A stretch of DNA of 64,000 bases, from the NCBI RefSeq assembly GCF_023476645.1, contig NZ_JAMCOJ010000002.1, forward strand, positions 281,561-345,560, read 5' to 3'. Every line of letters begins with the position of its first letter. Within the stretch, counting starts at the first letter, position 1. Shown here piece by piece: positions 2,668 to 51,907 of the stretch. Below the pieces are notes generated by a model. That model was not told the DNA's origin. It saw only the letters and a program-made list of their open reading frames with translations, and made no database searches. A program made the translations under genes and the position numbers. This DNA is from Cellulophaga sp. 20_2_10 (lineage in GTDB: Bacteria > Bacteroidota > Bacteroidia > Flavobacteriales > Flavobacteriaceae).

Positions 2668-2699
2668 GTTTTGGGTTTTACTAAATTAACCAATCAACT

Positions 2700-3314: not shown

Positions 3315-3321
3315 TTCATAC

Positions 3322-4344
3322 ATGAAAAAATGCATTCTCCTTGTTTTTGTTCTTGTGTTTTGTTTATCAAACAATAGCATACCAAAGGAAAATAGATACG
3401 AGTCCGAATTTACTTTTATAATAGGGCCAGATGCTAATAATCAGCAAATAAAAAAACGATTAGAGTTTTATTCATCTTATTCAAGAATAATAACTCATGT
3501 CCATATATCTGAGGATAGATTAATAATTAAATTTGAGAATTTTGTTTCGCCTAAAAAGGTAAATTTTTTATTAGAGACAGCTGGTTTAGCTCAAATAAGA
3601 GCAGCTAATTCGTCTCCTATACCTATAAAAGAGAGTTGTAATATCCGTGTAACGGGGAATGTGTATGTAGATGTAAATTCTCTTGCATATTCTGATAGAT
3701 CTAAATTAACAATGTTCTTTAAAGACCCACAAGTTTTAGAAGATTTTAGTGCTCTAAATATTGGAGAAAACTTAGCTCTTGCAATAGGAGATGTAGAAAT
3801 ATCTAAGGCTAAAATACGAGAACCAATAAAACAGGGTAGTTTAAGTTATTCTTTTATTCAAGAAAAAGATTTTAATGCCTGTATAATTGGAGCAATAATA
3901 AATAGCCCCTATACTACTAAACCGAGTATGGAGTTAGTAGAGCATAAATTAAATTTTAATAATGAAAGTATTTCTAAAGAATTAATTCAAAAATATAATA
4001 AGATAAAGGGGAACGAGGAGCTTATTAAACATATAGAATTTTTAGTAAAAAAGTCTGCTAGTACACGACCAGATTTATCGTCTAAAAATGTAGCAGAATA
4101 TTTTCCAGATATTGAAGCCTTATCAGATATACGATCTCTTTTTAGAATAATTTATACCAATGATATAGGCTATTTCTTAACAAAATCTAAGTGTACAACT
4201 TATTCAGATTTTGAAGCTCTAATAGATAAGATAAGTCTAGAAATAAAGACTTATGGTAATTTTTATGATAAGGGAGCTGATTTGAGAAAAAAACGCTTTA
4301 TCGCAAATGTTTATAAAATATCTAAAGAATATTTTAAAGAGTAA
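3322..4344 (+). CDS. Exported protein resembling the SecD periplasmic (P1) domain
   Basis: A 340-residue protein with an N-terminal hydrophobic segment (about residues 3-16) that looks like a signal peptide. Residues 28-95 resemble the P1 base of SecD: a ligand-like strand, a helix with K-K-R-L-E, a short strand ending D-R-L-I-I-K, and a V-N-F-L-L-E-T-A-G-L helix like SecD's LL-x-x-T-A-Q-L. Residues 148-175 contain IGDVEISKAKIREPI followed by a glycine turn, which matches the P1 head signature seen in SecD (D-x-x-V-x-S-A-P-V-I-x-x-P-I). No SecD membrane helices are present; the true secDF lies at 54,788. The C-terminal half (200-340) is not recognised. The role is unknown. Confidence 0.6.
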   Translation: MKKCILLVFVLVFCLSNNSIPKENRYESEFTFIIGPDANNQQIKKRLEFYSSYSRIITHVHISEDRLIIKFENFVSPKKVNFLLETAGLAQIRAANSSPIPIKESCNIRVTGNVYVDVNSLAYSDRSKLTMFFKDPQVLEDFSALNIGENLALAIGDVEISKAKIREPIKQGSLSYSFIQEKDFNACIIGAIINSPYTTKPSMELVEHKLNFNNESISKELIQKYNKIKGNEELIKHIEFLVKKSASTRPDLSSKNVAEYFPDIEALSDIRSLFRIIYTNDIGYFLTKSKCTTYSDFEALIDKISLEIKTYGNFYDKGADLRKKRFIANVYKISKEYFKE

Positions 4345-4384
4345 TTTTTATTAAACCTGTTACAATTTTAAAAGCTACGAGAAA

Positions 4385-5146
4385 ATGGATTTAAATGAAA
4401 TTAAAAAGAACTATGAAAGGTTTACTGATGATCATCTTATTTTAATAGCAACAAAGGAAATTGAATCATTAAGAGAAGATGTTGTACCAATATTAGAAAC
4501 AGAGCTTAAAAAGAGAAATATATGTATAGAAGAAGGAAAAGCTAAAATCACAAAAAAAAGGAGTACGCCTAAAGCAGAACCGCCTTTAGAGGAAGATTTA
4601 CCAATGGAAGACATAGTTTCCTTAAAGAACTCTTTTGAAATTCCTAATATACAGGTATCAGGAAAGAAATACTATTTAAGTACATCTTTGTTATTTATAA
4701 TTTCAATTGTATGTTCTATAGCATTAACTTTTTCTTTTAAATCATTTTTTGGTGGTGGTACAAAGTTAATTTTGCTAACTATAATCGTATCGGTTTTATT
4801 AAAAATAATATTTGGAAAAATAGGATTAGGTAAACTAGCAGATATCTACCCTAATAAGTTTATTTTGTTAAAATACCCCAATTCTAATTTTGGAATATTG
4901 AGAGTTTTAGTTTTGTTTGGAGTGCTACTAGGGCTTTTGCCTAAAATTGAGGTAAATAATAAAAGCTTAAAGAAGTTTTATAAAAAAGACGAATTAACTA
5001 ATAAAGGTTTTTATATAGAATTTAGTAATAGTTTTAATGGAAAAGTAAACACACAAAGAGTTTTTTTAGAGTTACTCTCTGAAAACGATAAAATGCAAAT
5101 TATTAAGATTTTAAACATAATAACAGCAAAAAATACAAGTGCTTAA
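4385..5146 (+). CDS. Membrane protein with N-terminal acidic helical repeat
   Basis: The 253-residue product opens with one copy of a helical hairpin motif (residues 6-46: Y-x-x-F-T-D-D-H-L-I, then L-R-E-D-V-V-P-I-L-E-T-E-L-K-K-R-N-I). A charged linker follows, then hydrophobic helices at about 98-120, 123-145 and 170-188, and a soluble tail. The motif is related to the two repeats in the product at 2700-3314. It suggests a cytoplasmic binding module on a membrane anchor. No catalytic residues are seen and the function is unknown. Confidence 0.65.
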   Translation: MDLNEIKKNYERFTDDHLILIATKEIESLREDVVPILETELKKRNICIEEGKAKITKKRSTPKAEPPLEEDLPMEDIVSLKNSFEIPNIQVSGKKYYLSTSLLFIISIVCSIALTFSFKSFFGGGTKLILLTIIVSVLLKIIFGKIGLGKLADIYPNKFILLKYPNSNFGILRVLVLFGVLLGLLPKIEVNNKSLKKFYKKDELTNKGFYIEFSNSFNGKVNTQRVFLELLSENDKMQIIKILNIITAKNTSA

Positions 5147-5167
5147 TTATTTACCTTATCATTAAAA

Positions 5168-5926
5168 AGAAAGAAATACTACTTATATCCCTTAGAATGT
5201 TTTCATTCTATTGCGTAGGTAAAAAAAACAAAAACAGAAGATATTAAAGCTACAGAAGTTACTTTCAATAAAGAAGAATAGGCTAATAAAAAAGTAGAAC
5301 CATCTAAATTATCCGCTCTAGAAATTAAATAAAAAGCAAATGTATTTTCTATAAAAAGAGTAGGTGCAGTTGTCGCAGATAGTTTATTTGCATACGAACT
5401 AAATTATAAAAACGATACGCTAGCAATTTTAAAAGGAAAAGTTGAAGATTCTGGCATAAAAGGAGTGTGGGTAAACGCAGAAAACAAAAAAGAGTATCCT
5501 TTGCTTATAACAAAAGCAGCTAAAAAAGTAACTCCGTTACCAGCAGATTTACTGGGGGAGTATTATAATGATATGTGTAATTTAACTATTACGTTTACAA
5601 AGTCTAAAGGAGAGTATTACTATAACTACAAGTCTAAAGAACGAAACTTAAAAGGGAAACTTAATTTTTATAGAGAGGATGGTTTATACATAAATTTATC
5701 AGAGATTGAATATGCTGAGGATTATTTTGATGTTGGTTTGGCAGAGGAAGATCCTGAAACCGAAAAGAAATATGCAGAATTAAAAAAAATAGGCAAGCGC
5801 AAACTTGGTGTAGAGTGCTATTATAGTCCAGGGGAATTAACAATTCAGAATTACGGTAATTCAATGAATTATTATGTGAAGTTAAATGATTGCGGAGAAA
5901 AGTAAATTCATTTTAAAAAGAAGTAG
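5168..5926 (+). pseudogene. Decayed paralogue of the lipoprotein gene at 12,424
   Basis: The sequence aligns along most of its length with the intact lipoprotein gene at 12,424-13,272. At the left end AAATACTACTTATA, and later AAAACAGAAGAT, match the signal-peptide and linker coding region, but the ATG is lost and stops interrupt the frame (for example TAA at 5330-5332). About 110 bp of the region encoding the first globular part is missing. From 5333 the frame is open and encodes residues close to the paralogue to the end. There TAC (Tyr) has become TAA at 5903-5905, just before the codons for IHFKK and the old stop region at 5924-5926. A GTG-initiated 146-residue ORF (5465-5905) remains but lacks a signal peptide. 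Confidence 0.85.
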
Positions 5927-5946
5927 TATACCATTAAACACAAATA

Positions 5947-6639
5947 ATGAAACAGTTATTAATTACCTTACTTTTAGTTTTACCATTAAGTTGTTCTTTT
6001 GTAAAACAGCAAAATCAAGCAGAAGATACAAGAGAATGGAATAGGTTTGAACTTACAGGTCTAGTTAAAACTCTAAAACAAAAAACATATGAGGCTGATT
6101 TTACCAGTAGAAAAATTAAAGAGGATCAACTTAGTTTATTAAAGACCGTAATTGTTAGTTTTGATAGTATTGGAAGATATACTAAATCTATTACTTTAAA
6201 CGCAGAAAATAACAGAACTAGTAGCACAACAACTAAGTATGCAAAAGGTAAAAATTATGAATCTTTTCATTATAACAAAGACAATGTTTTACGCAACAAA
6301 AGCAAAGTAAAGTATGTGTCTGATTCATTAATTTTAGAGGAATCTTTTGCTACTAATGGCGAGTTATTATTTTCTATTAGAGTTAAAAAGAGAAATGATA
6401 GATTTTCTAAAGTAACTCTTGTAAACGGGGATAAAATAGATTCACATTTTTATTATTATACAGCTGATAAATTTATAAATAAGATAGTAACCGTAAATAA
6501 AAATAAGGACACTATATCTAATATAAAATACAAGTATGTAGCGTTTGATAAAAATGGAAATTGGATTAAAAGGTTGTCTAAAAATTCTTTTAATAAAAAT
6601 GATACAGGTAAACTAGAAGTAAGGGAAATAAGCTATTAA
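5947..6639 (+). CDS. Predicted lipoprotein with YD-like beta repeats
   Basis: A 230-residue lipoprotein: the signal sequence ends LPLSC with Cys16 as the acylated residue. The mature part is built of repeated short strands with aromatic turns (Y-N-K-D-N-V-L, F-D-K-N-G-N-W-I-K-R). These resemble the repeat style of Bacteroidota lipoproteins that look like single RHS/YD repeats. It begins 20 bp after the pseudogene. No enzyme motif is visible. The first copy of the 70-bp intergenic element lies just after its stop. Confidence 0.6.
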   Translation: MKQLLITLLLVLPLSCSFVKQQNQAEDTREWNRFELTGLVKTLKQKTYEADFTSRKIKEDQLSLLKTVIVSFDSIGRYTKSITLNAENNRTSSTTTKYAKGKNYESFHYNKDNVLRNKSKVKYVSDSLILEESFATNGELLFSIRVKKRNDRFSKVTLVNGDKIDSHFYYYTADKFINKIVTVNKNKDTISNIKYKYVAFDKNGNWIKRLSKNSFNKNDTGKLEVREISY

Positions 6640-6661
6640 AAATAACTAATAGGATTGTTTT

Positions 6662-6732
6662 AAATATACAATATACGCTAACGAATATAAACTGCAACTT
6701 TGGCAATTAAATTTCTACTACTAGTATTGTTA
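6662..6732 (+). repeat. 70-bp intergenic element, copy 1
   Basis: The left part AAATATACAATATACG is followed by the 17-bp core CTAACGAATATAAACTG (6678-6694), and the right box TAGTATTGTTA lies at 6722-6732. Core start to box start is 44 bp, as in copies 3 and 4. ACAATA (6668-6673) can pair with TATTGT (6725-6730). The element sits 59 bp upstream of the next start codon. TTTG at 6699-6702 lies 19 bp before TAGTATTG, which would suit a Bacteroidota -33/-7 promoter. Confidence 0.75.
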
Positions 6733-6791
6733 ACCCTAAAAACAATTATTTTAGAAGATTTTTTTATTAAAGATAAATAACAGTAAATAGT

Positions 6792-7361
6792 ATGACAAAT
6801 TTAACATTAAACTTAAACGCAAAATTACAACCAATGCACCGTCACGACTTGGAAGATGCATTACAAGAAATACTAGAAACATTAGATTTTAAGGCCGAAA
6901 CTACTGGTGGTGGTACGATGCAAGCACCAAACGGAGAAATAGAATCTTGTGATATTGAATTAAGTATTTCTGATAGTTCTGAAGAGAACATTAATAAAAT
7001 TATTGAAGCAGCAGAGGCTATGTTATCGCCTATTGGGTCAAAGTTAATTATATACCCAGAAGATGAAAGTAAAGATGTTGTAAGGATCCCTTTTGGCTCT
7101 CAAGAAGGATTAGGACTGTATTTAAATAGTAATGATTTAGATGATGAAGTTTATAAAAACTGTGATGTAAATTATATTTATGAAGAAATAGAGCGTTTAC
7201 TGGGCGATTTTAAAACAGGACATATTGCTAGTTATTGGGAAGGTGAAGAAACTTCTCTTTATTTGTATGGTGAAAGTTTTGATGAAATGCATACGCGCAT
7301 TAAACCCTTACTAGATAGTTACCCATTGTGCCAAAAGTGCAGAGTGGTTAAAATTGCATAA
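6792..7361 (+). CDS. Acidic cytoplasmic orphan protein
   Basis: A 189-residue, strongly acidic soluble protein with no signal peptide. The N-terminal half carries an ordered pattern (LNLNAKLQPMHRHDLEDAL, then E-T-T-G-G-G-T-M, then E-S-C-D-I-E-L) that I believe recurs in small Bacteroidota and proteobacterial proteins of unknown function. The second half has Y-I-Y-E-E-I-E-R-L-L and a W-E-G-E-E-T-S-L-Y-L-Y-G strand. Small acidic proteins of this kind in such clusters are often immunity proteins, but I cannot assign a toxin or family. Copy 1 of the 70-bp element lies directly upstream and copy 2 directly downstream. Confidence 0.65.
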   Translation: MTNLTLNLNAKLQPMHRHDLEDALQEILETLDFKAETTGGGTMQAPNGEIESCDIELSISDSSEENINKIIEAAEAMLSPIGSKLIIYPEDESKDVVRIPFGSQEGLGLYLNSNDLDDEVYKNCDVNYIYEEIERLLGDFKTGHIASYWEGEETSLYLYGESFDEMHTRIKPLLDSYPLCQKCRVVKIA

Positions 7362-7410
7362 GAATTAGGCTTAGCACTACCTTTTTTATATTTTTTTAAG
7401 ATTACCTTTT

Positions 7411-7472
7411 AAATATATAGTATACCCTAACGAATATAAACTGTTGCTTCAGTTGTTAGTTTACTATTGCTA
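7411..7472 (+). repeat. 70-bp intergenic element, copy 2 (9 bp shorter)
   Basis: The left part AAATATATAGTATACC leads into the identical 17-bp core (7427-7443), and the right box TACTATTGCTA lies at 7462-7472. Core-to-box distance is 35 bp against 44 bp in the other copies. Three nested stems are possible: ATAGTA (7417-7422) with TACTAT (7462-7467), CTAAC (7427-7431) with GTTAG (7455-7459), and AACTG (7439-7443) with CAGTT (7450-7454). GAATATA is left as a one-sided bulge. The next start codon is 79 bp downstream. Confidence 0.8.
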
Positions 7473-7551
7473 TTATTGGTATTAATATAAAATGCGACTA
7501 TAAGCTTGCTTATGTTTCTTATACCAAACATTGTCTAATAAAAAACAACAA

Positions 7552-8187
7552 ATGAAGAAGACCATCTTATTTACTTTAGTCATATTATCTAATTGGATGT
7601 ATGGTCAAAGGCAGCATAAATTTGCTAAAGATATTGACTTTGATGCTATTAAGGACACCATATATTTGGATGTAATTAATTTTAAAATTGTCTGTAAACT
7701 ATCTAGCATTAATTTTAAGAAAGTAGAAAGTATACCAATAGAGGGAATAAATGTAATGAGTGGTATAAGCGATTCTAAAAATGGTTTTAAGTTTGAAAAT
7801 CATTGGATGCGTGCCGGATATTCTAATCAATTTAGGTACAATAAAAGAACTAAAAAGATACAACTTATAGGGATGAGTAGGTACGAGTTTGGTGGTTATA
7901 CCCAAGATGGAAGTGGGGAGTCTAGTGTTAACCTATTAACCGGTGATTATATTGGTAATTGGAATTATTACGATGATTTTACTTATGATGAATGGGGTAA
8001 AAAGGAAGAAGAAAAGCTTGTGAAAATTCCAACAATAAAAACTAAACTAAAATTTAAGACTATTAACTTAGAGGATTTTAGTGAGGATACATATTTTGAT
8101 TATGCAGATAAATGTTCAGTACTTTACCATAAAAACAGAAATAGAATAATTAACTCTAGCAATTATAATAAAGAAGATAGCCCATAA
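7552..8187 (+). CDS. Secreted protein of the XAC2610-like type
   Basis: I chose ATG 7552, giving 211 residues, because it starts a clean signal peptide (MKKTILFTLVILSNWMYGQ, cleavage after Gln19). The upstream TTG at 7531 would add seven polar residues. The mature part begins with an FDAIKDTIYLD segment like a calcium-loop remnant of FG-GAP proteins. It then has I-V-C-K-L-S, WMRAGYSNQFRY, IQLIGMSRYEFG and SSVNLLTGDYIGNWNYYDD. This string of motifs belongs to a recurrent family of secreted bacterial proteins, some annotated XAC2610-related. The biochemical role is unknown. The second 70-bp element lies upstream. Confidence 0.65.
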   Translation: MKKTILFTLVILSNWMYGQRQHKFAKDIDFDAIKDTIYLDVINFKIVCKLSSINFKKVESIPIEGINVMSGISDSKNGFKFENHWMRAGYSNQFRYNKRTKKIQLIGMSRYEFGGYTQDGSGESSVNLLTGDYIGNWNYYDDFTYDEWGKKEEEKLVKIPTIKTKLKFKTINLEDFSEDTYFDYADKCSVLYHKNRNRIINSSNYNKEDSP

Positions 8188-8277
8188 TTAAATTCAGAAG
8201 GGAGCATTTTAACAAAAATAGATATAGTTCTATTTGTTTAACTACATGAAAATGATAAAACTAAAACTTAACATTTA

Positions 8278-9096
8278 ATGCAAAAAATAACATATATACT
8301 TTTACTATTCTTATTTGGTTTTAGCGTAACAGCTCAGAATATTAAATTCCCAGATGATGCACATATTAGAACAGGAGTAATTAACGATGCTGATGGGTAC
8401 GTTAATATTAGACAAGGCAAAAGTTCATCTAGTAAAATAATTTCGAAAATAAAAAAAGACGAAGAATTTAAATTTGCTTTACCTAAAGCAGAAAACGAGA
8501 AATGGACTTTAGTTAAAACGACTTTAAACGAAGTTGGCTATGTCTATTTTAATAGAATATATGAATTAAGAAAAGACAACTGTGCAGATCAAGTTGAGTT
8601 AATAGACCAAACGTGGGAACATACCAGAGGAGGTCTTGGTACTAGAACAATAGATTCTATACCTCCAAACCTAGAAGAAATTAACTTAAATATAAGCTCT
8701 AAAAATAGAGGTAAAATTAACAAACTATTGTCTTGTGCTTTAGAAAAGATAGATTTATTTGAAGAGAATAACTCAGAAAAAACATTAAAATTCACTCAGA
8801 AGACATATAAAACTTCGCAAAATACAAACGTAGTAGTTACCAAATATCATGACGCTTATTCTGAAAATCTAGGAACTGTAGTTTCTATACTAGAGAATGG
8901 AGAAATGGAGAGTTATGCATACTATGGGTATTTGTCATCAATAACTATTTATGCCTTAAAAAAAGTAGATGGTAATTATAGACTATATGGTAACCTAGAA
9001 GGTAGTCCAGGTGATTGCTATGGTGGTAATTTTACGCTAGAGCTTATTAATAAGTCTTGGGTATATAAATTTGAGTATTACGAGTTTAATGGATAA
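8278..9096 (+). CDS. Secreted protein with bacterial SH3 domain
   Basis: A 272-residue protein with a signal peptide (residues 1-19, ending VTAQ). Residues 33-98 form a bacterial SH3 domain, recognised by G-Y-V-N-I-R-Q-G-K-S-S-S-S-K-I-I, K-D-E-E-F and the closing G-Y-V-Y-F-N-R-I. Such domains bind peptidoglycan peptides or proteins in the envelope. The remaining 170 residues, with conserved aromatic and glycine positions, are not recognised. It precedes the large exported protein at 9134 with a gap of only 37 bp, so the two are probably co-transcribed. Confidence 0.7.
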   Translation: MQKITYILLLFLFGFSVTAQNIKFPDDAHIRTGVINDADGYVNIRQGKSSSSKIISKIKKDEEFKFALPKAENEKWTLVKTTLNEVGYVYFNRIYELRKDNCADQVELIDQTWEHTRGGLGTRTIDSIPPNLEEINLNISSKNRGKINKLLSCALEKIDLFEENNSEKTLKFTQKTYKTSQNTNVVVTKYHDAYSENLGTVVSILENGEMESYAYYGYLSSITIYALKKVDGNYRLYGNLEGSPGDCYGGNFTLELINKSWVYKFEYYEFNG

Positions 9097-9133
9097 AATA
9101 GAACTTTTAAATACGAATCTAACTAAAAACAAA

Positions 9134-11059
9134 ATGATTAAAAAAAGCATTCTCTTATTGTGTATTATTTTTTGTGTTCACTGCAAAAGCGCACAACATA
9201 AATTTCCTTCTTTTGATGCTGTAGTAACTACGTTCTTTACAAGTTATGATCTACGGAAGGAGCAGGGAACAGATGATATTAGATTTGTTAAAAAACAAGA
9301 TGGTTACTATATTCAAGAGTATAATTATGACACTAATGACTATAAAAAAACAGTTTTGTTCTGGAGTGCTTCTAACAATACATACCAGAAGTTAAATTTT
9401 CCTAAAGGTAAAGAGTTAAATGCCGCCTATGCTAATTACCACTTAACATACCATAATAAAGAAAGGTTTAATGTGCTGCCTTACTATGGTTATGTGGGTT
9501 GGACAAAAGATGTTATTGCATTTTTAGAACAAAAATCTGATCTTAAAGATATAGAGTACTATGCATTGGGTAGGGCTTATGGTGCTAGTGCAGGTCATTT
9601 GCTAAATGCTAGTTATCCATTTTCAGACCCTAAAGAACAATTTAATTTTTTAGAATCAGGTAAAAATCAATTTACAAAAGAGCAGCTTAAAACCTATATT
9701 AATTATGAGGAAAAGGCATTAGAAAATTATACCATACTTTGTCAAAAAAATCCAGATTATCCAACTGTTGTAGGCACCATTTGTAATAAACTAGATAACG
9801 AGTATGTTAGTACTTATTTAAACCTTAGTATTTATCAAAACGAGGCAGAAGCTTTAGCTTTTTTACCAGAAGGTCTGTATACAGATTTTGTTACGTATTA
9901 TGCTAAAAATTACTTAAACTCTGTAGAGCCAAATGGTATTTTGTTTACAACAGGAGATAATGATACATATCCGTTGTTGTATGTTCAAGCCAGTTTAAAA
10001 TACCGCCAAGATGTTGCTATTGTAAATACTAGTTTATTAAACCAAAATAGTTATGTAAACCATTTAAGAGATGATAAGGTTTTAGCTTCAACACCAATTA
10101 AGTTTACACTAAAACCAGATGCATATGCAAAAGAAAATTTAGCCTATATAGTTTTAGATGCTAACAAAAATGATAATACGTATTTAGATTTAAAAAGTAC
10201 ACTAAAGCTAATAAATACAAAAGACTCATCTGTGGTTTATAAAAAAGCAAAAGAGAATGCTATATTGTCTACAAATAAAATAGCTATAGCTATAAACCAA
10301 GACAGATTAAAGCTTACATACAAAACAAATTATATAGTTAAGGGAGAATTACTTGCGCTAGATCTTATAGCGTCCAATATAAAAACTAGACCTGTATACT
10401 GTACATTTAATGAGTTGCCTGTAGTTTCTAATTATTTAGAAAAATCTGGTTTTGCATATAAAATAGTAACTAGTCCTAAAAACAAAATAGAAAATGATAG
10501 GTATTTAGCAGGTATAGATGCAGATAAAACCTATGCTATTTTAGTAGATGAGTTTCAGTATCATAAAAACACTAAAAATAGCTCAAAAACTGAGCTCTCT
10601 GTTTTAATAAGTTATACATCTTCTTATGAAACCCTTATTAATCATTACAAAGAGGAAGGAAACATTAAAAAATGTAAAGAAGTATTAGATGCATTCACAA
10701 ATTTTTATCCAAAAAACCTTTACGCAGATATTAGTTTTATGATTTCATCTATGGCAAAAAATGCGTATGCCATAAAAGATTTTAAAAATGGAGATCTTAT
10801 GGTTGAAAATCTTATTGAAAATTTAGAGCATATAAAAAGAAATAACAAAGAGAGCACAACCACTACCAAAGCAGCAGCTTTAAGAAAATTAATTTTTGGA
10901 GATGAGGTTAATAGTAAATTAGATAAAAATAAACTAGAGCGTCATTTATATGTTATTACAGATGTATTAGAAACGGAAGAGGTAAATAGTAATTTAACTT
11001 CTCGTTTGTATACGTTAAAAAAGTATTTTATGGAGCAGCTTCGTAATATTGAAGAATAA
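9134..11059 (+). CDS. Exported protein resembling the C-terminal region of DUF2723 proteins
   Basis: I use ATG 9134 (641 residues), which begins an N-terminal signal (MIKKSILLLCIIFCVHC); an upstream ATG at 9071 would overlap the previous gene and add a polar tail. The region around residues 270-300 reads I-L-F-T-T-G-D-N-D-T-Y-P-L-L-Y-V-Q, then R-Q-D-V-A-I-V-N-T-S-L-L. This matches the signature in the extracytoplasmic C-terminal part of large DUF2723 membrane proteins. A later A-L-D-L-I-A-S-N-I-K-T-R-P-V-Y-C segment matches the same region. The many membrane helices of DUF2723 proteins are absent. The C-terminal 150 residues look helical and TPR-like. The function is unknown. Confidence 0.6.
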   Translation: MIKKSILLLCIIFCVHCKSAQHKFPSFDAVVTTFFTSYDLRKEQGTDDIRFVKKQDGYYIQEYNYDTNDYKKTVLFWSASNNTYQKLNFPKGKELNAAYANYHLTYHNKERFNVLPYYGYVGWTKDVIAFLEQKSDLKDIEYYALGRAYGASAGHLLNASYPFSDPKEQFNFLESGKNQFTKEQLKTYINYEEKALENYTILCQKNPDYPTVVGTICNKLDNEYVSTYLNLSIYQNEAEALAFLPEGLYTDFVTYYAKNYLNSVEPNGILFTTGDNDTYPLLYVQASLKYRQDVAIVNTSLLNQNSYVNHLRDDKVLASTPIKFTLKPDAYAKENLAYIVLDANKNDNTYLDLKSTLKLINTKDSSVVYKKAKENAILSTNKIAIAINQDRLKLTYKTNYIVKGELLALDLIASNIKTRPVYCTFNELPVVSNYLEKSGFAYKIVTSPKNKIENDRYLAGIDADKTYAILVDEFQYHKNTKNSSKTELSVLISYTSSYETLINHYKEEGNIKKCKEVLDAFTNFYPKNLYADISFMISSMAKNAYAIKDFKNGDLMVENLIENLEHIKRNNKESTTTTKAAALRKLIFGDEVNSKLDKNKLERHLYVITDVLETEEVNSNLTSRLYTLKKYFMEQLRNIEE

Positions 11060-11093
11060 AATTAGTGTAAAGTAAGTAGTTAATTTTAAAACT

Positions 11094-11465
11094 ATGCTTA
11101 GAAAAAAGATAAAAATACAAAGTTACTCAGGCCTTTTTTTTACGGCACTCTACGGAGTTCTTCTAAGAGTTTTAAGGGAGAATTTTGATATTTCCAATGA
11201 GAACTTTATACTCATTTTTATTGTACCCGCTATTATAAGTTTAATACCTGTTTATTATGCAACTACGGGTGTGTATACATCTAGATTAAAGCTTTTCTTT
11301 TACCCTTTTTTTTCAACGCTATTATTTTTAATAATATGCTATGTAAGTAGTTGGGAAGATTTTCTTTTGTTTCTACTTTTAGGTTTGCCATTCTATATAA
11401 TTACAGGCGTGCTTGGTATACTGGTAGGCGGAGTTGTAAAAGAACGAGCAGAGAGTAAAAAGTAG
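11094..11465 (+). CDS. Small four-helix membrane protein, unknown
   Basis: The 123-residue product is almost entirely hydrophobic, with segments at about residues 12-27, 38-56, 67-86 and 92-115 and a charged C-terminal tail (KERAESKK). It starts 34 bp after the preceding gene and probably belongs to its transcript. No conserved functional residues are visible and I recognise no family. Confidence 0.55.
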   Translation: MLRKKIKIQSYSGLFFTALYGVLLRVLRENFDISNENFILIFIVPAIISLIPVYYATTGVYTSRLKLFFYPFFSTLLFLIICYVSSWEDFLLFLLLGLPFYIITGVLGILVGGVVKERAESKK

Positions 11466-11548
11466 TATTTTAGATTTTTTTATCAAGAGATTAATACTTT
11501 AGTGGAGTAAAATATATAGTCTTACTAATAGAAAGTCAATAATAGAAG

Positions 11549-12388
11549 ATGAAGTTACCTAAGAGAATAAAAGAAGTTTCTATAGATACAGAAATACAAG
11601 TTGGAGTATATCCGCCAAATGGTTTTTTGCAATTTTCTGAGGCAGGTTTGGGTAACGGAGATTACTTTGGTTTGTACTGGGAATTTGGTAAAGAAAACGA
11701 AGAGCCTATAGTTTGTGAAATGATGCATGATGAAGGAATTATAAAACCTAGTTTTTCTTCTCTTGATAAATTTTTAGAATGGTACACAGTAAACGATTTT
11801 GATTATGGCGATGAAGAAATTGGCGATGAAGAAATTGACGATGAAAAATTGGTGTATAATTACCTAGAGAAAGGGAACTTATGTTTACAACAAAACAACA
11901 TCGAAAAGGCAATTGAGTTTTATAGAGCAAGTACAGAAAGTTTTGGGGAATTAAGCGAGAATTGGTTTAAATTAGCTTCACAATATAAGAGAATTGGTAA
12001 CGAATTAGATTTTCAAAAGAGTTTAATTAACGCAATAATTTCTAATTGGGCAATAGATTTCCCTTCTCAGAATGCAGTAAGAATGCTTAAGAATTTAACC
12101 CCTGTAGCAGCGTTAAAAAATCACCCTTTACTTAGAAATAGAGAACAACTCGACTTTAATTTTGGAGGACAAAAAGAGAATAAGAATTACCAAGTAATTA
12201 AGACTGTCTTTACAGAACTTTACGAGCTTGGAGATTATAATAAGGCATTGTTGTTAGAGCAGAATTATGCACTAATGATGTATTGGGAAACATCTTCTTT
12301 TCAAGAAAGAAATAATTTTGATATCAAGGAATGGAGAAATCAATTTAGCCAAAAAACAAAATCAAGAATAGAACTAAATAATATATAA
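11549..12388 (+). CDS. SUKH (SMI1/KNR4)-like protein with helical repeat region
   Basis: A 279-residue soluble protein. Residues 25-80 carry the end of a SUKH fold: GNGDYFGLYWEFGKENEEPI, V-C-E-M-M-H-D-E, and F-S-S-L-D-K-F-L-E-W-Y. SUKH proteins are common immunity proteins to polymorphic toxins and to contact-dependent systems. The acidic linker that follows is coded by tandem 15-bp units (from 11,817). Residues 101-165 look like one or two TPR hairpins (G-N-L-C-L-Q-Q-N-N-I-E-K-A-I-E-F-Y). The start of the canonical SUKH domain is short here. An immunity role is inferred from the family and the neighbourhood; no toxin gene is visible. Confidence 0.65.
   Translation: MKLPKRIKEVSIDTEIQVGVYPPNGFLQFSEAGLGNGDYFGLYWEFGKENEEPIVCEMMHDEGIIKPSFSSLDKFLEWYTVNDFDYGDEEIGDEEIDDEKLVYNYLEKGNLCLQQNNIEKAIEFYRASTESFGELSENWFKLASQYKRIGNELDFQKSLINAIISNWAIDFPSQNAVRMLKNLTPVAALKNHPLLRNREQLDFNFGGQKENKNYQVIKTVFTELYELGDYNKALLLEQNYALMMYWETSSFQERNNFDIKEWRNQFSQKTKSRIELNNI
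11817..11861 (+). repeat. In-frame 15-bp tandem repeat inside the SUKH-like gene
   Basis: GGCGATGAAGAAATT occurs twice exactly (11,817-11,831 and 11,832-11,846), and a third diverged unit GACGATGAAAAATTG follows. It encodes repeated G-D-E-E-I in an acidic linker between the SUKH-like and TPR-like parts. The unit length is a multiple of three, so slippage changes linker length without breaking the frame. Confidence 0.9.
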
Positions 12389-12423
12389 TTATAACTTTAG
12401 TTTATATTAATCCACGATCAAAA

Positions 12424-13272
12424 ATGAAAAAAATACTACTTATAGCTTTTTTAATAGCCCTTAATTCTTGTGCGGAGAAAAAAACTAAAACAGAAGATTC
12501 TAAGAATACAGAGCTTAGTACCAAGGATACTGTAGAAACTAAGAAAGAAGAAGATAAGCCTAAGGAATTAAATAAAGATATAGTTTTAGGAAGTTATAAG
12601 GGTAAAATAGGAAGTAATTTAGAGACTGCTTTTCATTTAGATAATAATGACGGCCATATTAGTGGATTTTATTATTACAAAAAAATAGGAATAGATATAA
12701 AAGTTGTAGGTACTGTGGTAGCAGATAGTCTACTTGCATACGAGCTAAATTATAAAAACGATACCCTAGCAATTATAAAAGGAAAAATTGAGGATTCTGC
12801 TATAAATGGAGTGTGGGTAAATGCAAAAAATAAAAAAGAGTATCCATTACTTATAACCAAAACAACTAAAAATATAACACCATTACCAGAAGGAATAGAA
12901 GGAGCGTATTATAATGATATGTGTAATTTAACTCTTACGTTTACAAAGTCTAAAGGCGAATATTACTATACCTACCAATCTAATGAACGAAGCTTAAAAG
13001 GTAAAATCAATTTTTATAGAGAAGAAGACTTATACATGACCCTAACAGAAATTGAATATGCAGAAGATTATTTTGATGTTGCCTTGTTTGAAGAAGATCC
13101 AGAAAAAGAAAAGGAATATGCAAAGCTCAAAGAAATAGGCAAACGTAGAGTAGGCGTAGAGTGTTATTATAGTCCGGACGAGTTAACAATTCAGAATTAC
13201 GGTAATGCAATGAATTACTACGTAAAATTAAACGATTGTAGCGAAAAATACATTCATTTTAAAAAGCAGTAA
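12424..13272 (+). CDS. Predicted lipoprotein (intact paralogue of the 5.2-kb pseudogene)
   Basis: A 282-residue lipoprotein: signal MKKILLIAFLIALNSC with Cys16 acylated, then a lysine/glutamate-rich linker to about residue 55. The mature part has a beta-rich segment (LGSYKGKIG, then a D-N-N-D-G-H-I-S-G-F-Y-Y-Y strand typical of beta-sandwich lipoproteins). It ends with a tyrosine-rich half with Y-Y-N-D-M-C-N-L and C-Y-Y-S-P-D-E-L. The C-terminal 180 residues are closely matched by the broken copy at 5168-5926, 7.3 kb upstream on the same strand. The function is unknown; surface or periplasmic location is inferred from the lipobox. Confidence 0.7.
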   Translation: MKKILLIAFLIALNSCAEKKTKTEDSKNTELSTKDTVETKKEEDKPKELNKDIVLGSYKGKIGSNLETAFHLDNNDGHISGFYYYKKIGIDIKVVGTVVADSLLAYELNYKNDTLAIIKGKIEDSAINGVWVNAKNKKEYPLLITKTTKNITPLPEGIEGAYYNDMCNLTLTFTKSKGEYYYTYQSNERSLKGKINFYREEDLYMTLTEIEYAEDYFDVALFEEDPEKEKEYAKLKEIGKRRVGVECYYSPDELTIQNYGNAMNYYVKLNDCSEKYIHFKKQ

Positions 13273-13297
13273 AGCCTTTATTAATTTATCATATTCT

Positions 13298-13368
13298 AAA
13301 TATGACATATACCCTAACGAATATAAACTGCTGTTAGTTTTTTTGGGTATATGTGTTTATTATTGCTA
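13298..13368 (+). repeat. 70-bp intergenic element, copy 3
   Basis: The left part AAATATGACATATACC leads into the identical 17-bp core (13,314-13,330), and the right box TATTATTGCTA lies at 13,358-13,368. Core-to-box distance is 44 bp. ACATATACCC (13,305-13,314) is a perfect 10-bp inverted repeat of GGGTATATGT (13,345-13,354), and TAAC/GTTA can extend the stem inward. The next start codon lies 53-59 bp downstream. Confidence 0.8.
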
Positions 13369-13426
13369 CATAAAAAATTATAGTTTTAAAGATTGTTTTT
13401 TATAAGCAAATCACTAAGATGTGAGA

Positions 13427-13738
13427 ATGAATCAATTAAAAATAATTACTTTTTTAGAATCATTATTTAAAGTGCTACTAGTAATCTCATTACTAATTAT
13501 TGCTACAGGTGTTGTTGTTCATTTTTTAGATGTGTACAACATTCTTAGAAATAGTTTTTTTATAGGAATCCCTTTGTTTCTACTTAGTTTAATTTGCTAT
13601 TTAGTAATGCGAACTTTAAGGCGCTTTAAAACCAAACAGCCCGTTGTTAAATTGCTATTTCTAATACTATTAGGTAGTGCAATTACTTTTGGTTTGTATG
13701 TAATTTTCGGCAAAATTATGGAAGCTGTTTCTCATTAA
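13427..13738 (+). CDS. Small membrane protein, unknown
   Basis: Hydrophobic protein of about 103 residues with three predicted membrane segments, at about 14-36, 44-62 and 74-95 from the ATG at 13,427. A GTG two codons upstream (13,421) is an alternative start. It lies downstream of copy 3 of the 70-bp element and 18 bp upstream of a larger membrane protein, so the two are probably translated from one transcript. No family is recognised. Confidence 0.55.
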   Translation: MNQLKIITFLESLFKVLLVISLLIIATGVVVHFLDVYNILRNSFFIGIPLFLLSLICYLVMRTLRRFKTKQPVVKLLFLILLGSAITFGLYVIFGKIMEAVSH

Positions 13739-13755
13739 AAAATATCAATTACGCT

Positions 13756-14748
13756 ATGATGACCACAAAGAAATTAGTACTTCAATTTTTAAAGTATTTT
13801 ATATTAAGTTGTTTTTTTTATTATTTGTTTTCAGTAGTGCAGGTCATCATACATTTTATGGCTGAAGCTGGTGTTTTAATCAATATAATTAATACGTGCT
13901 TATTTAGTTTAAGCCTAGTTGATACTATTATGCTTTTTGGTTTATTTATTTCTGCTTTGTTGTTTACAGCCTACTGGTTACGTAATAAACGTAGTGTAAT
14001 AAAATTATTAAAATTAGGTTTAGTAATGTCAGTTTTGTTTTCAGCACTTATTTTTATAACTAAAAATACGTTGGTTCCTGAGCTTAAAATTATGTCTTAC
14101 TTAAGCAGGTATGAGTATGCCCTTAGAGTAAAACTAAACACAGAAGAGAGAAGAGAAATGAGTGACGATTTAAGAAAAAATAGATTGTCAATGATGAATG
14201 TTTTAGCCATAAATAAATACAAAGATTCATTACAAACCGAAATATCTGCTAAAGAAACTACTATAAAAGAGCTAGCATTAAGTACACCAGATAGTATATT
14301 AGAAAGTGTTTTGCCTAACTCTTATCTAAATAAGTATATTCAAAATAAACCTAAAAATACATCAGAATTTGGTTTGTTTACCCTAAATAAATTAAAGTAT
14401 GAGGTAAGTTTACACAAACAATTAATTAAACAAATTAAGCTATCAAATTGGGAAGAAGCAAAGTATTATCTTACTATTTTCTTGACATTCTTTTTTGTTG
14501 CTTATGGTATTGTACTAGGTTTTAACCTTAAAAATAAGCACCCAATTGTTGCAGTTATAGCAGGTATTGCTATTTATTTGTATAGCTATAAAGTAATTGA
14601 AATGATTGGTAACAATATAAATGGATCTTATAACTCTACAGAGATAATTACTAATATCTGCGTTATTGTTATTTTGTTTTTAGGGCTAACCTATAGAATG
14701 GTTTTACTTGAGAAAAAGCAAAAAAACAATAGAACACTAGAACACTAG
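13756..14748 (+). CDS. Membrane protein with central helical domain, unknown
   Basis: A 330-residue protein with hydrophobic segments at about residues 11-34, 48-70 and 85-100, then a charged helical region (about 110-230) and three more hydrophobic segments (about 235-255, 262-280 and 292-315). The arrangement of membrane bundle, soluble insert and membrane bundle resembles LptF/LptG-type permeases in outline only. I see no specific motif that supports that family. It follows the small membrane protein by 18 bp. The function is unknown. Confidence 0.55.
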   Translation: MMTTKKLVLQFLKYFILSCFFYYLFSVVQVIIHFMAEAGVLINIINTCLFSLSLVDTIMLFGLFISALLFTAYWLRNKRSVIKLLKLGLVMSVLFSALIFITKNTLVPELKIMSYLSRYEYALRVKLNTEERREMSDDLRKNRLSMMNVLAINKYKDSLQTEISAKETTIKELALSTPDSILESVLPNSYLNKYIQNKPKNTSEFGLFTLNKLKYEVSLHKQLIKQIKLSNWEEAKYYLTIFLTFFFVAYGIVLGFNLKNKHPIVAVIAGIAIYLYSYKVIEMIGNNINGSYNSTEIITNICVIVILFLGLTYRMVLLEKKQKNNRTLEH

Positions 14749-14828
14749 AACAAGTTAGTCAAGAGTAAAAATGTTAGATATAGTTAATTGTATTTTATCA
14801 TATAAAGTTAGTATCTAAATTTACTTAT

Positions 14829-14899
14829 AAATATACAATACACGCTTACGAATATTAATTGCTGTCTTGGTTGTGGCATAAGTGTACGTATTATTGCTA
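14829..14899 (+). repeat. 70-bp intergenic element, copy 4 (diverged core)
   Basis: The left part AAATATACAATACACG is nearly identical to copy 1. The core CTTACGAATATTAATTG (14,845-14,861) matches the other copies at 14 of 17 positions, and the right box TATTATTGCTA (14,889-14,899) is identical to copy 3. Core-to-box distance is 44 bp. AATACACGCTTA (14,837-14,848) can pair with TAAGTGTACGTATT (14,879-14,892), with one G-T wobble and a 2-nt bulge. CTTG at 14,866-14,869 lies 19 bp before the right box, suiting a -33/-7 pair. Confidence 0.7.
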
Positions 14900-14943
14900 A
14901 TGAAACTAAAGGTGCAAATCTTAAATTAATAAGCGGTACACAA

Positions 14944-15552
14944 ATGAAAAAAAGCCTGTTTTATAGTATGCTTTTCTTGTTATTCTCTTGCGGGAATAAC
15001 CAAAAAAAAGAAATGAAACATACCGAGAAAAAGGAAACTAACTATAGTTTACAACTAAAGGACACATTGTTAATTAATAAAGACTTTACAATACCTTATT
15101 TAAAAATTGAATCGTTAACCTATTCAGATTTTCAAAAGCAGAATAAAGTTATTTTTGAAGAAACCAAACACGGTAGTTTAAGTTGCGGAAATTCTAGTCC
15201 AATGTGGGACTCTAGCACCAATGTTAAAAATGACACTTTAGGGATAGAATTAAATTTTAGTAAGAACTGGGTAGAGAATACACCAAAACCTAAGGACGAA
15301 GTATTAAACAGAATTGTGTTAAACAAAGCAAAAGCAAAGTTTTATAACGGAATTATACTAGGTAAGTCTACTATAGCAGAAGTAAAAGAAAAGTTTGGGA
15401 AGCCTATACAGGAGAGTAATTATGTATTGGAATATAGTTTTAAAGAAACGCGTATAGTATTTATTTATAATGAACAAGATGTGGTGTATTACCTTCAACT
15501 ATCTAAAGCTTATCAAGAGTCTAAACCACAAGATAGTTTAGCATTTAATTAA
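14944..15552 (+). CDS. Predicted lipoprotein, unknown
   Basis: A 202-residue lipoprotein with the signal ending LLFSC (Cys16) and a lysine-rich linker. The mature part includes a C-terminal segment G-I-I-L-G-K-S-T-I-A-E-V-K-E-K-F-G-K-P, which resembles the helix-turn used in small BLIP/SmpA-like lipoprotein folds. That similarity is short and weak. It lies 45 bp downstream of copy 4 of the 70-bp element. The function is unknown. Confidence 0.6.
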   Translation: MKKSLFYSMLFLLFSCGNNQKKEMKHTEKKETNYSLQLKDTLLINKDFTIPYLKIESLTYSDFQKQNKVIFEETKHGSLSCGNSSPMWDSSTNVKNDTLGIELNFSKNWVENTPKPKDEVLNRIVLNKAKAKFYNGIILGKSTIAEVKEKFGKPIQESNYVLEYSFKETRIVFIYNEQDVVYYLQLSKAYQESKPQDSLAFN

Positions 15553-15591
15553 AAAACGAATCATTTAATCTGGGATATCAACGCATACCAA

Positions 15592-16089
15592 ATGAGGATA
15601 GAAAAAAAACACACAAAAACTATTTTTCAATTTCAGAGTCATTATCAACAAGAACAAGTTTGGGAGTATCTAACACATCCAAAATATTCGGTTGGTTTTA
15701 GTTTAGAACCTTGCTATTATAATGAAATTAGTGAGTCTTTTAAATTAGAAAAAAACAATAAATGGACCGAAATACATACGGGAGAGGACTGCACGGGAGA
15801 TGTTGTTGTATGTAAAATTACAGACGCTGATACGTATAATTTGTTTACGACAGTAAGGCATCAAGCAGGAATTAAAAACACTACAATTTTTAAGCTACAG
15901 AAAAATGAAAAAGGAACAATTATTACCGAGATACAAAAATTCTCTTTAAGTATAAAAAAAATGAAACCAATTAGCATTTTTGCTTGGTTAATGTTGATGA
16001 CAGGACTGTTAACCAAATTCTCTTTTAAACCTGAAGAAGATGAATATTGGTTTAAAAAAATGGAAGAACATATAAAAGAAATTCACTAG
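15592..16089 (+). CDS. SRPBCC (START-like) fold protein, probable
   Basis: A 165-residue soluble protein. The order of elements fits a START-like ligand-binding fold: an N-terminal strand, a helix with Q-E-Q-V-W-E-Y-L-T-H-P-K-Y, alternating strands (K-W-T-E-I-H-T-G, T-T-I-F-K-L) and a long C-terminal helix (residues 145-165). No catalytic residues are evident. Proteins of this fold often bind lipids or small hydrophobic ligands. The assignment rests on fold pattern, so it is tentative. It is followed closely by another exported orphan. Confidence 0.5.
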   Translation: MRIEKKHTKTIFQFQSHYQQEQVWEYLTHPKYSVGFSLEPCYYNEISESFKLEKNNKWTEIHTGEDCTGDVVVCKITDADTYNLFTTVRHQAGIKNTTIFKLQKNEKGTIITEIQKFSLSIKKMKPISIFAWLMLMTGLLTKFSFKPEEDEYWFKKMEEHIKEIH

Positions 16090-16130
16090 TACTAGTACGA
16101 GACGTCTATATAATATTTATATAATAAAAT

Positions 16131-16628
16131 ATGAAACAACTATTAATTCTATGTTTATTTTTATTTTCTTTCGTGGGTTTTTCTCAAGTAGGTAAATCAA
16201 AACAAAATTTAATACCCGTTGCCGTAGATAGTATTCAGTTTTCAATTTGGGATATACACTCTAAAGAAACGTCTACTCCAGGTACAAAAGTTGAAGAGTA
16301 TAAAAAAGAACTAGGTTATACTGTATTAGACAAAAAAGACCAAGATATATTTATAAGAAAGCTGCAAATGCCAAAATCATACAATCAATCCAGAGCGTTG
16401 TTGCATCATTATAATATAGTGTTTCTAATGTATCATAAAGGTAAAATAGCTGCTCAAGTGCGTATTTCTTCAATTACAGGAAATATAGATATAGATACTG
16501 TTCAAAATCAAAATAACTATAAAAGTAGCTGTTCTAAACAAATGGGAGAATATATAATTTTCTTACTAAAAAATTATAAGCTTATAAAATTAATAGATGA
16601 GGTATATTTAGATGGACTATCAACTTAA
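16131..16628 (+). CDS. Secreted orphan protein
   Basis: A 165-residue protein with a signal peptide (MKQLLILCLFLFSFVGFSQ, cleavage after Gln19). The mature part has no recognised domain. It ends with a hydrophobic helix near residues 140-160 that is too short and charged to be a clear membrane segment. It is spaced 18 bp from the YwqK-like gene downstream, consistent with one transcript. The function is unknown. Confidence 0.55.
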   Translation: MKQLLILCLFLFSFVGFSQVGKSKQNLIPVAVDSIQFSIWDIHSKETSTPGTKVEEYKKELGYTVLDKKDQDIFIRKLQMPKSYNQSRALLHHYNIVFLMYHKGKIAAQVRISSITGNIDIDTVQNQNNYKSSCSKQMGEYIIFLLKNYKLIKLIDEVYLDGLST

Positions 16629-16646
16629 TTTTAAAATAGAATTATA

Positions 16647-17582
16647 ATGAGCAAAATAAAAATAGGAGGTCTAATAAATAGTATACTAATATTGGTATGC
16701 TTTTTCCTTTTTCAGAATACCTACAGTCAATCAAAAATTTATTTTGATAAGGACTGGAAAAAAACAACCAAAGAAGAAGCACGCTTTTATAGAGTTGTAA
16801 CTAAAAAGAACGATTCTCTTTTTCATATTAGAGACTATTTTATAAGTGGGGTGCTACAGATGAATGGTCATTTTTCTAACCTAGAAGAGGAAGTAATGGA
16901 GGGTAAAATTACCTTTTATGATGAAAAAGGAAAAAGAACAAATAGCGAAAATTATGCAAATGGTGTTCTAAACGGACCAAGTATTGTTTACTTAGAAAAC
17001 GGCAAAATAGAGTATACTAGTGAATACAAAAATGGAGATATATATAATGGTATATATAAGGCTGCAACAGTTAAATACTTGTATAAGAACGGTGTAACTG
17101 CTAAGAGGATTGAGTTTTTGTCACCAAACGATTTTTACCCTTTAGCTACAACAGTATACGGTAAAGAAAGGGATACTGTTTATTGGTATACAAGTAAAGG
17201 TGAAAAAATAGGATTTGGCACCTACAAAGGCATTAAAACTATAGACGGATTAGATATTAAAAAGAGTTGGTTAGAGGTTACACATACGTTTTATAAGAAC
17301 GGAAAAAAAGAGGGAGGGCAAAGCATATTTTATGAGGGTAAATTAATTGCAGAAAATACCTTTGCTGATGATGTACTTACCCTAAACAAAAGTTTAAATC
17401 CATTAACAGATAAATTTGTTACGTGCAAATACAAAGATAATATGCCGTTTCAAGGGCATTATTTTGTGTACCATGTTACGTCAGATTATTATGATGAATA
17501 TGTTTATGATACCGGAAAAATTACCTCATACAATAAATACAAGAGCATAAATGGGGTAATAAAATCTAAGGCTACAAAATAA
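16647..17582 (+). CDS. Secreted YwqK/MORN-like repeat protein
   Basis: A 311-residue protein with a signal peptide (about residues 1-27, ending TYSQ). It contains repeats of the MORN/YwqK type: I-T-F-Y-D-E-K-G-K-R, N-G-V-L-N-G-P-S-I-V-Y-L-E-N-G-K, Y-K-N-G-D-I-Y-N-G-I-Y and T-F-Y-K-N-G-K-K-E-G-G. YwqK is annotated as an antitoxin component in Bacillus, and the repeat is abundant in Bacteroidota exported proteins. The exported location makes an envelope or interbacterial role more likely than a cytoplasmic antitoxin, but this is inference. Confidence 0.7.
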   Translation: MSKIKIGGLINSILILVCFFLFQNTYSQSKIYFDKDWKKTTKEEARFYRVVTKKNDSLFHIRDYFISGVLQMNGHFSNLEEEVMEGKITFYDEKGKRTNSENYANGVLNGPSIVYLENGKIEYTSEYKNGDIYNGIYKAATVKYLYKNGVTAKRIEFLSPNDFYPLATTVYGKERDTVYWYTSKGEKIGFGTYKGIKTIDGLDIKKSWLEVTHTFYKNGKKEGGQSIFYEGKLIAENTFADDVLTLNKSLNPLTDKFVTCKYKDNMPFQGHYFVYHVTSDYYDEYVYDTGKITSYNKYKSINGVIKSKATK

Positions 17583-17618
17583 TATTTTAAACTATAAGCA
17601 CCATTTACTTCATTTAAT

Positions 17619-18266
17619 ATGATAAATTCTAAACCTTTGAAATATATACTTTTGTCGATATTATGTTCTGCTTGTACCTTTTCTAAAGGTCAAGAAAAAC
17701 AAGAACAGAACAAACAAAAACAAGAGCAAGTAAAAGAGCAAGTTGTGCCTGTAGCAAGCAAAGAGCAAGAGGTTAAAAATATATTTAAGAGTAAAACCGA
17801 TTATATAGCAACTAATTTTAATTTTCCTGTAGGTAAGCCAAATGCAAAAGGATATTACAATGCACAGGTATTTGGCAAAAACAACCATTTAGGAGATGAC
17901 TGGAACGCGGTTACAGGCGGAAACTCGGATCTAGGACAACCTATATATTCTATAGCAAATGGTTATGTTAACTTTGCAGAAGATATAGGTGGAGGTTGGG
18001 GAAAAGTAATAAGAGTATGGCATCTTAAAGCAGACGGTGAAATAGTAGAATCTTTATACGCACATTGCAATGCTATTTTAAATACTAAAGGAGAATTTGT
18101 TAAAATAGGACAAAAAATAGCTACAATAGGTAATGCAGATGGCCAGTATTTAGCGCATTTACATTTAGAAATTAGAGAAGATATTAAGTTGCCAGTAGGA
18201 CCAGGATATTCAGAAAATACAAAAGGCTATTTAGACCCTACCAAATTTATAAAAGGAAATAGATAA
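17619..18266 (+). CDS. M23 family (LytM-type) peptidase, lipoprotein
   Basis: A 215-residue predicted lipoprotein (lipobox LCSAC, Cys19) with a low-complexity Q/K/E linker at residues 24-50. The catalytic domain has the M23 zinc site: H90-x3-D94 in N-H-L-G-D-D, the Y-A-H motif (His149) and H180-L-H182. These enzymes cut peptide cross-bridges in peptidoglycan. All metal ligands are present, so the enzyme should be active. It is the last gene of the plus-strand island and runs toward the terminator of ssrA. In this setting it could serve in envelope remodelling or as a cell-wall-directed effector; the sequence does not decide. Confidence 0.85.
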   Translation: MINSKPLKYILLSILCSACTFSKGQEKQEQNKQKQEQVKEQVVPVASKEQEVKNIFKSKTDYIATNFNFPVGKPNAKGYYNAQVFGKNNHLGDDWNAVTGGNSDLGQPIYSIANGYVNFAEDIGGGWGKVIRVWHLKADGEIVESLYAHCNAILNTKGEFVKIGQKIATIGNADGQYLAHLHLEIREDIKLPVGPGYSENTKGYLDPTKFIKGNR

Positions 18267-18279
18267 CCAAATTGGTTGC

Positions 18280-18320
18280 TAAAAAAAATAAACCCCGTAA
18301 ACATTGCTGTTACGGGGTTT
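18280..18320 (-). terminator. Terminator of ssrA
   Basis: AAACCCCGTAA (18,290-18,300) pairs with TTACGGGGTTT (18,310-18,320) around a 9-nt loop. Read on the minus strand, the stem is followed by a T-rich tract (18,280-18,289). It lies just past the 3' end of the tmRNA gene. Confidence 0.9.
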
Positions 18321-18325
18321 ATTAG

Positions 18326-18718: not shown

Positions 18719-18752
18719 AGAATTTTAATAATCTTAATGGCGTTTTAACGGG

Positions 18753-18872: not shown

Positions 18873-18930
18873 CTTGTCATATGTTACATTTACAACTAAG
18901 CATAAGCCTAAAGTTATAAAAGTATTTTCT

Positions 18931-49891: not shown

Positions 49892-51907
<2,016 letters not shown>

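Follow-up and report, generated by a model that had tools for sequence, protein, structure and literature searches.

The stretch of DNA analysed here, referred to as the window, is 64,000 nucleotides (nt) from Cellulophaga sp. 20_2_10, a member of the Flavobacteriaceae (NZ_JAMCOJ010000002.1, positions 281,561 to 345,560 of the forward strand). An element of about 70 base pairs (bp) occurs in it four times, each time ahead of an orphan gene, and is a candidate promoter under the control of a LytTR two-component system. The genome that holds the window is designated G000; G202, G203, G204, G206 and G213 are other Cellulophaga genomes and G351 is from a different genus. The features at the locus, with lengths in amino acids (aa), are the following.

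6661-6729, plus strand: element copy 1, with half-site 1 at 6661-6673, half-site 2 at 6682-6694 and TTG at 6700-6702
6722-6729, plus strand: -7-like box of copy 1, TAGTATTG; predicted transcription start near 6734
6792-7361, plus strand: first gene behind copy 1, 189 aa, with no Pfam match and no obvious signal peptide; the same promoter-gene pair is present in G202
7410-7478, plus strand: element copy 2, with half-site 1 at 7410-7422 and half-site 2 at 7431-7443
7471-7478, plus strand: box of copy 2, TATTATTG; predicted start near 7483
7552-8187, plus strand: first gene behind copy 2, 211 aa, with a signal-peptide-like start and no Pfam match
13297-13365, plus strand: element copy 3, with half-site 1 at 13297-13309 and half-site 2 at 13318-13330
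13358-13365, plus strand: box of copy 3, TATTATTG; predicted start near 13370
13421-13738, plus strand: first gene behind copy 3, a membrane-like orphan of 105 aa with ATG at 13427 and no Pfam match; the same pair is present in G202
14828-14896, plus strand: element copy 4, with half-site 1 at 14828-14840, half-site 2 at 14849-14861 and TTG at 14867-14869
14889-14896, plus strand: box of copy 4, TATTATTG; predicted start near 14901
14944-15552, plus strand: first gene behind copy 4, 202 aa, with a lipoprotein-like start and no Pfam match

The four copies lie where a sequence-only reading of this DNA had placed them. The 17-nt core matches exactly at 6678, 7427 and 13314 and with three mismatches at 14845, and the copies align gap-free over 75 nt (repeat finder, family D2). 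With up to three mismatches allowed the core is matched five times in the window against 0.61 expected, a number reached by none of 100 shuffles; the fifth match, at 49900 on the minus strand, is isolated and has three mismatches. The distance from core to box is 44 bp in all four copies. The sequence-only reading had it as 44 bp in three and 35 bp in one, which is wrong: copy 2 too has a box, TATTATTGGTA, at 44 bp, and the TACTATTGCTA at 35 bp is a further sequence that resembles it, so that the spacing does not vary. That reading was correct in taking the right box as one base off TAnnTTTG, as it is in all four, and in seeing a TTG 19 nt ahead of it in copies 1 and 4, the only copies to have one. 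The ATG of the next gene is 47-73 nt past the box, and for copies 2 and 3 earlier non-ATG starts are possible, 52 and 55 nt past it. Comparison of window positions 1-20000 with Rfam gave a tmRNA gene and a Flavo-1 RNA as the sole matches; 14700-15560 had no match in a phage collection, and a sigma-70 and terminator scan was uninformative (78 promoter-like sites against 73.5 expected, four terminators against 4.7 expected).

A profile built purely from the letters of the four window copies (R1) found further copies in the same genome and strong ones in four of 17 other Cellulophaga genomes, G202, G203, G204 and G206; profile matches number 8-13 in each of five Cellulophaga genomes. Iterated nhmmer over 16 sequences gave 30 matches, 27 strong and three weak. 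All 30 are upstream of a co-oriented open reading frame (ORF) whose ATG is 21-86 nt past the box; no ORF of more than 80 aa spans a copy, and two copies extend 13 and 21 nt into the end of the ORF ahead of them. One copy, at 9152 of locus L086, is a base out of register and was removed, and the remaining 29 (alignment A4) align without indels. Alignment positions 0-12, 17-33 and 61-68 are conserved, positions 34-60 much less so. The first two conserved blocks contain half-sites, yAAATATaCAAyA and acGAATATwAAyTG, that form a direct repeat with a period of 21: among offsets 8-29 the agreement between columns is highest at 21, with 59% of cells, and the runner-up is at 48%. A TAnTATTG box follows 40 bp past the C of the second repeat and is within one mismatch of TAnnTTTG in every one of the 29 copies, the deviation always being an A at position 5 or another single change. 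Taking the box as -12 to -5, with transcription expected to begin about 5 nt past it, the AATAT cores are centred near -69 and -48, and the second half-site ends 5 bp ahead of the -33 position and 27 bp ahead of the -7 box. Since conservation falls on the half-sites and the box, and the repeat has a period of 21, the element is best described as a tandem operator plus core promoter, not as a single 70-bp block.

Profiles R2, run on the 18 Cellulophaga genomes, and R3, run on 21 genomes, add to these class 1 copies two further classes with the same repeat and the same box register, class 2 with TAATATTTG-like boxes and class 3, ahead of a 204-aa gene, with TACATTTA-like boxes. The boxes of these other classes are TAnnTTTG- or TAnnTTTA-like, and a co-oriented gene starts within 400 nt in 12 of the 13 places inspected; the thirteenth, L148, is without one and is probably a chance match. 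L148 and the uncertain L147 were left out of A5/R3. At an E-value of 0.001, R2 matched only G000 and G186 among 199 genomes of the family. The repeat pattern, sought in 397 family genomes, is present nine times in G000 and once in each of four others, with none in the reversed control; two of those four matches are inside genes and two, in G351 and G186, are intergenic with the same layout. The core alone is no marker beyond the genus, with 11 one-mismatch matches in 198 genomes of other genera against four for the reversed control. None of those 11 loci shows the rest of the element when inspected by eye, and the exact core was rejected as a family-wide marker.

In G351 a LytTR response regulator and its TPR/His_kinase neighbour lie in a 20-kb region that has five element matches, two of them weak. 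The corresponding genes of G000 are as follows.

G000:C4:45081-45803, outside the window: LytTR response regulator, 244 aa, with PF00072 and PF04397
Regulator locus of G000: sensor partner, 572 aa, with PF06580 (His_kinase) and TPR

G000, G202, G203, G204, G206, G213 and G186 each have a regulator ortholog (69-75% identity), which with G351 makes eight of 21 genomes, and the next best LytTR paralogs are at no more than 42%. At least three R3 matches with E of 0.02 or below are found in seven of the 21 genomes, and all seven hold a regulator ortholog, though G186 and G351 had been picked for their sites. Among the 18 related Cellulophaga genomes, at least three sites are present in five of six with the regulator and in none of 12 without it (Fisher p 0.0007). 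The regulator operon runs from the 204-aa gene to the kinase and regulator genes, and in G000 and G202 a gene for a WG-repeat protein stands between the 204-aa gene and the kinase. By profile, the element stands ahead of this operon in G203, G204 and G206 and ahead of the kinase gene in G186; none was found by profile at the operon start of G213, and at the locus of G000 itself the A5 profile gave no useful score (E 0.15-0.95, or none, in G000 and G202). Sequence inspection with a script check nevertheless finds three repeats at each of the G000 and G202 loci, all three with a box at exactly offset 40, preceding the 204-aa gene, a 185-aa lipoprotein gene and a DUF1266 gene; one half-site there reads CTAATAT.

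An independent test took the loci of the best 80 regulator relatives from named genomes, 45 of them orthologs (48-75% identity to the G000 protein) and 35 paralogs (33-39%). The ortholog loci include those of Aureibaculum, Winogradskyella, Tenacibaculum, Aquimarina, Algoriphagus, Maribacter, Flagellimonas and others. The profile at 12 bits or more scores 19 times in ten of the 45 ortholog loci and in none of the 35 paralog loci; the ten include L244, from training genome G186, as well as L235 and L236, from close relatives of training genome G351. A profile-free count was made of same-strand C[AG]AATAT pairs at distances of 10-40, with a run of three half-sites counting as two pairs. Around the orthologs 30 of 36 such pairs are at exactly 21 bp, in 20 of the 45 loci (24 of 30 without L244, L235 and L236); around the paralogs there are two pairs in all, neither at 21 bp. 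For the box, the ortholog loci and 26 further ones supplied 28 sites in 21 loci, leaving out L237 and L244, which are from training genomes G213 and G186, and three duplicate loci. All 28 sites are outside ORFs of at least 90 aa and all have a co-oriented ORF within 400 nt. A box with at most one mismatch to TAnnTTTG is at exactly the predicted offset in 18 of the 28 (13 of 23 without L235 and L236), no other offset has more than three, and unpaired control motifs have a box at that offset in 2.7% of cases (n=632). At L248, L253, L261 and L262 there are three half-sites at period 21, not two, ahead of the kinase gene, an arrangement that suggests tandem cooperative binding at the regulator's own promoter.

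The repeat, the register of its box, its promoter position, and its co-occurrence and co-location with one regulator thus come directly from the computation, and they support what the sequence-only reading had proposed, a shared promoter with an upstream activator or operator site that makes the downstream genes one regulon; the profile search of the genome and its relatives, which it had put forward as the check, supplied the further copies and their co-oriented genes. The preferred interpretation, to which a probability of roughly 85% is given, treats the element as a primary-sigma promoter that is under positive control and belongs to a LytTR two-component regulon, with the C4 response regulator as its regulator. 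A dimer of that regulator would bind the two tandem half-sites, which at 21 bp are two helical turns apart, and the bound regulator would help RNA polymerase where the promoter's own -33 and -7 elements are weak. The sensor-regulator operon would be among its own targets, providing feedback, and the regulon would comprise about 16 promoters in G000, that is 13 profile matches, some weak, and the three at the regulator locus. Direct binding by the regulator, activation in preference to repression, and a signal are the parts that we infer.

Known LytTR sites provide the comparison. The sites that LytTR regulators bind consist of a pair of 9-11 nt repeats and a spacer of 11-13 nt (PMC4847170); the regulators of Streptococcus mutans autoactivate through repeats mostly 12 bp apart and 4-11 bp ahead of -35 (PMC6193735), sites for AgrA precede promoters with suboptimal spacing (PMC4227749), and the primary-sigma box of Flavobacteriaceae is TAnnTTTG at -12 to -5 (PMC9723704). 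The period of 21 and the place just upstream of the promoter agree with the sites described in PMC4847170 and PMC6193735, and the layout is consistent with a weak core promoter that is activated. The repeat spacing, the place ahead of -33, the pairing of receiver-LytTR protein with His_kinase and the site at the regulator's own operon are each found here as at LytTR sites. With the operators of AgrA, YpdB and VirR (PMC4227749, PMC4847170) the element shares two repeats, a spacer of 11-13 nt and a position just upstream of a suboptimal core promoter, and the system shares a LytS-type His_kinase partner; it differs in the AATAT-centred recognition sequence, the Bacteroidota -7 box and the envelope-orphan regulon. 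The LytTR Regulatory Systems (LRS) of S. mutans are similarly autoregulated through direct repeats, of 9 bp and 12 bp apart, and LRS-like operons of Bacteroides have comparable 11-bp repeats 11 bp apart, but in those systems the LytTR protein has a membrane inhibitor or membrane segments (PMC6193735), in contrast to the soluble receiver-LytTR protein with histidine kinase here. With Flavobacteriaceae primary-sigma promoters (PMC9723704) the element shares the box, which departs from their consensus by no more than one base and keeps a constant position ahead of the gene; the fixed upstream operator, and the A at the fifth box position of the window class, are distinct. A LytTR operator with its regulon is a known kind of system, of which this regulator, operator and set of targets would be a new example. 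The literature search, with most subscription journals outside its reach, returned no publication that describes a LytTR regulon of this kind for Flavobacteriaceae.

Several observations weigh against this interpretation. TTG at -33 (alignment positions 39-41) is present in just nine of the 29 copies. Because the five site-rich Cellulophaga genomes are relatives of one another, they do not count as five independent cases of co-occurrence with the regulator. G212 and G201 have one site each without a regulator ortholog, and G213 has the ortholog with only two weak sites. In a further set of 29 ortholog loci, 26 of them non-duplicate, the strict pair is in two of the 26, and on the tree the pair is retained in most of the clade of the Cellulophaga regulator and is patchy in the sister clade, where the recognised sequence may have changed. 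An ortholog at an E-value of 1e-65 is present in 32 of 397 family genomes, far above the number with the pattern of the window.

An unlikely alternative is that the same promoter is served by another activator, of AraC type or another LytTR protein, with the co-occurring LytTR system only one of its targets. AraC-type proteins are known for 21-bp direct repeats and an AraC-type gene is present further upstream of the window; G000 also has several LytTR paralogs, in addition to a LytTR gene near the window. That nearby gene, for a membrane protein with a C-terminal LytTR domain (L006, 15838-16674, plus strand), is about 3.3 kb before the window. Its orthologs, at 69-72% identity, are in G199, G200, G207, G209 and G213, all genomes with fewer than three sites, and the site-rich G202, G203, G204 and G206 have only LytTR-domain matches to it; it was rejected as the regulator, as its distribution does not track the element. 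More generally, it is near orthologs of the C4 regulator that the repeat is concentrated, and the 35 LytTR paralogs show no such clustering.

Slightly less probable again is that the same LytTR site is repressing, the bound regulator keeping genes with weak promoters off until a signal arrives. The sign of control is not fixed by the sequence, but the core promoters are degenerate, as at the activated LytTR promoters of PMC6193735 and PMC4227749. Moreover the sites are upstream of -33 in fixed phase, not over the box or the start.

The setting of the arrays bears on a different type of explanation. The tmRNA gene (18323-18718, minus strand) has its 3′ end facing the orphan-gene island of the window, with the Flavo-1 RNA match (RF01705; 18742-18838, minus strand) just past it. 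Class 1 arrays of G202, G203, G204 and G206 are on the same, 3′, side of tmRNA as that of the window, and this side is possibly an integration hotspot; a second array, in G000 and G202, is within 15 kb of tRNA-Arg. The 202-aa family of the gene behind copy 4 follows the element in all five tmRNA-side islands, which differ in gene order. A 300-nt duplicate of an exported-protein gene is also present in the window, 5350-5649 being 85% identical to 12696-12995, and the copy of the gene at 5465-5905 appears shortened.

The change in gene order among the five islands is often at an element and, like the arrays of co-directional orphans, would be expected of a recombination site or cassette boundary, attC-like or of a recombinase-associated immunity cluster, with the element moving genes. 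Integron attC sites and recombinase-associated immunity clusters do have a short repeated element between co-directional orphan genes, and to that extent are alike. Here, however, there is no common hairpin: DNA folds of the four copies gave z of -0.28, -0.62, -3.87 and +0.78, so that three of the four fold no better than shuffles and the single-strand hairpin that an imperfect inverted repeat gives an attC site is not seen. Several sites are single and outside arrays, at distant operons including the regulator's own, and the fixed register of the -7 box and the start-codon distance have no reason in a recombination model. Among the 20 window proteins scanned with Pfam, the rest of the genome not being searched, there was no recombinase or tyrosine integrase. 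Gene content does often change at the element, but as a recombination mechanism the cassette boundary of the sequence-only reading is unsupported and very improbable. Least credible of all is that the four copies are leftovers of segmental duplication, one promoter without shared control: the island does hold the duplicated DNA just described, but conservation is limited to half-sites and box with the stretch between them variable, and the same layout stands before different gene families and in other genera.

With the LytTR-controlled promoter as the preferred reading, the nature of its targets is of interest. In G000 the first genes behind sites include orphans of lipoprotein-like, secreted-like, membrane and cytosolic type as well as those of the regulator operon (export was judged by eye from N-termini). 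The sequence-only expectation of exported orphans is borne out only in part, for some targets are not exported. Few of the proteins scanned have a Pfam family. Away from the four window copies the Pfam families in or beside the regulon are TonB_C, SH3_3, DUF1266 and WG repeats, with Imm33 once, in the G351 island. That Imm33 immunity-domain protein (L184, 17543-18289, minus strand) is in the island that holds the regulator and several sites.

Flavobacteria have several LytTR two-component systems per genome and many exported orphans without known control. Here an operator, a promoter register and a list of targets have been assigned to one LytTR system from sequence, with internal controls, which makes the assignment directly testable, and the orphan lipoproteins of the tmRNA-side islands share a candidate common regulator, which provides a handle on their function. 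A tentative proposal, possible though not favoured, has the LytTR system as master switch for envelope or immunity islands that were acquired. If it is true, modules gained at the tmRNA (ssrA) and tRNA-Arg sites would carry, or land behind, a ready-made LytTR promoter, and each new orphan lipoprotein would from the outset belong to a single regulon that senses damage or attack. On a broader view the C4 LytTR regulator probably controls scattered genes of marine flavobacteria whose products are for the most part exported and have no known function.

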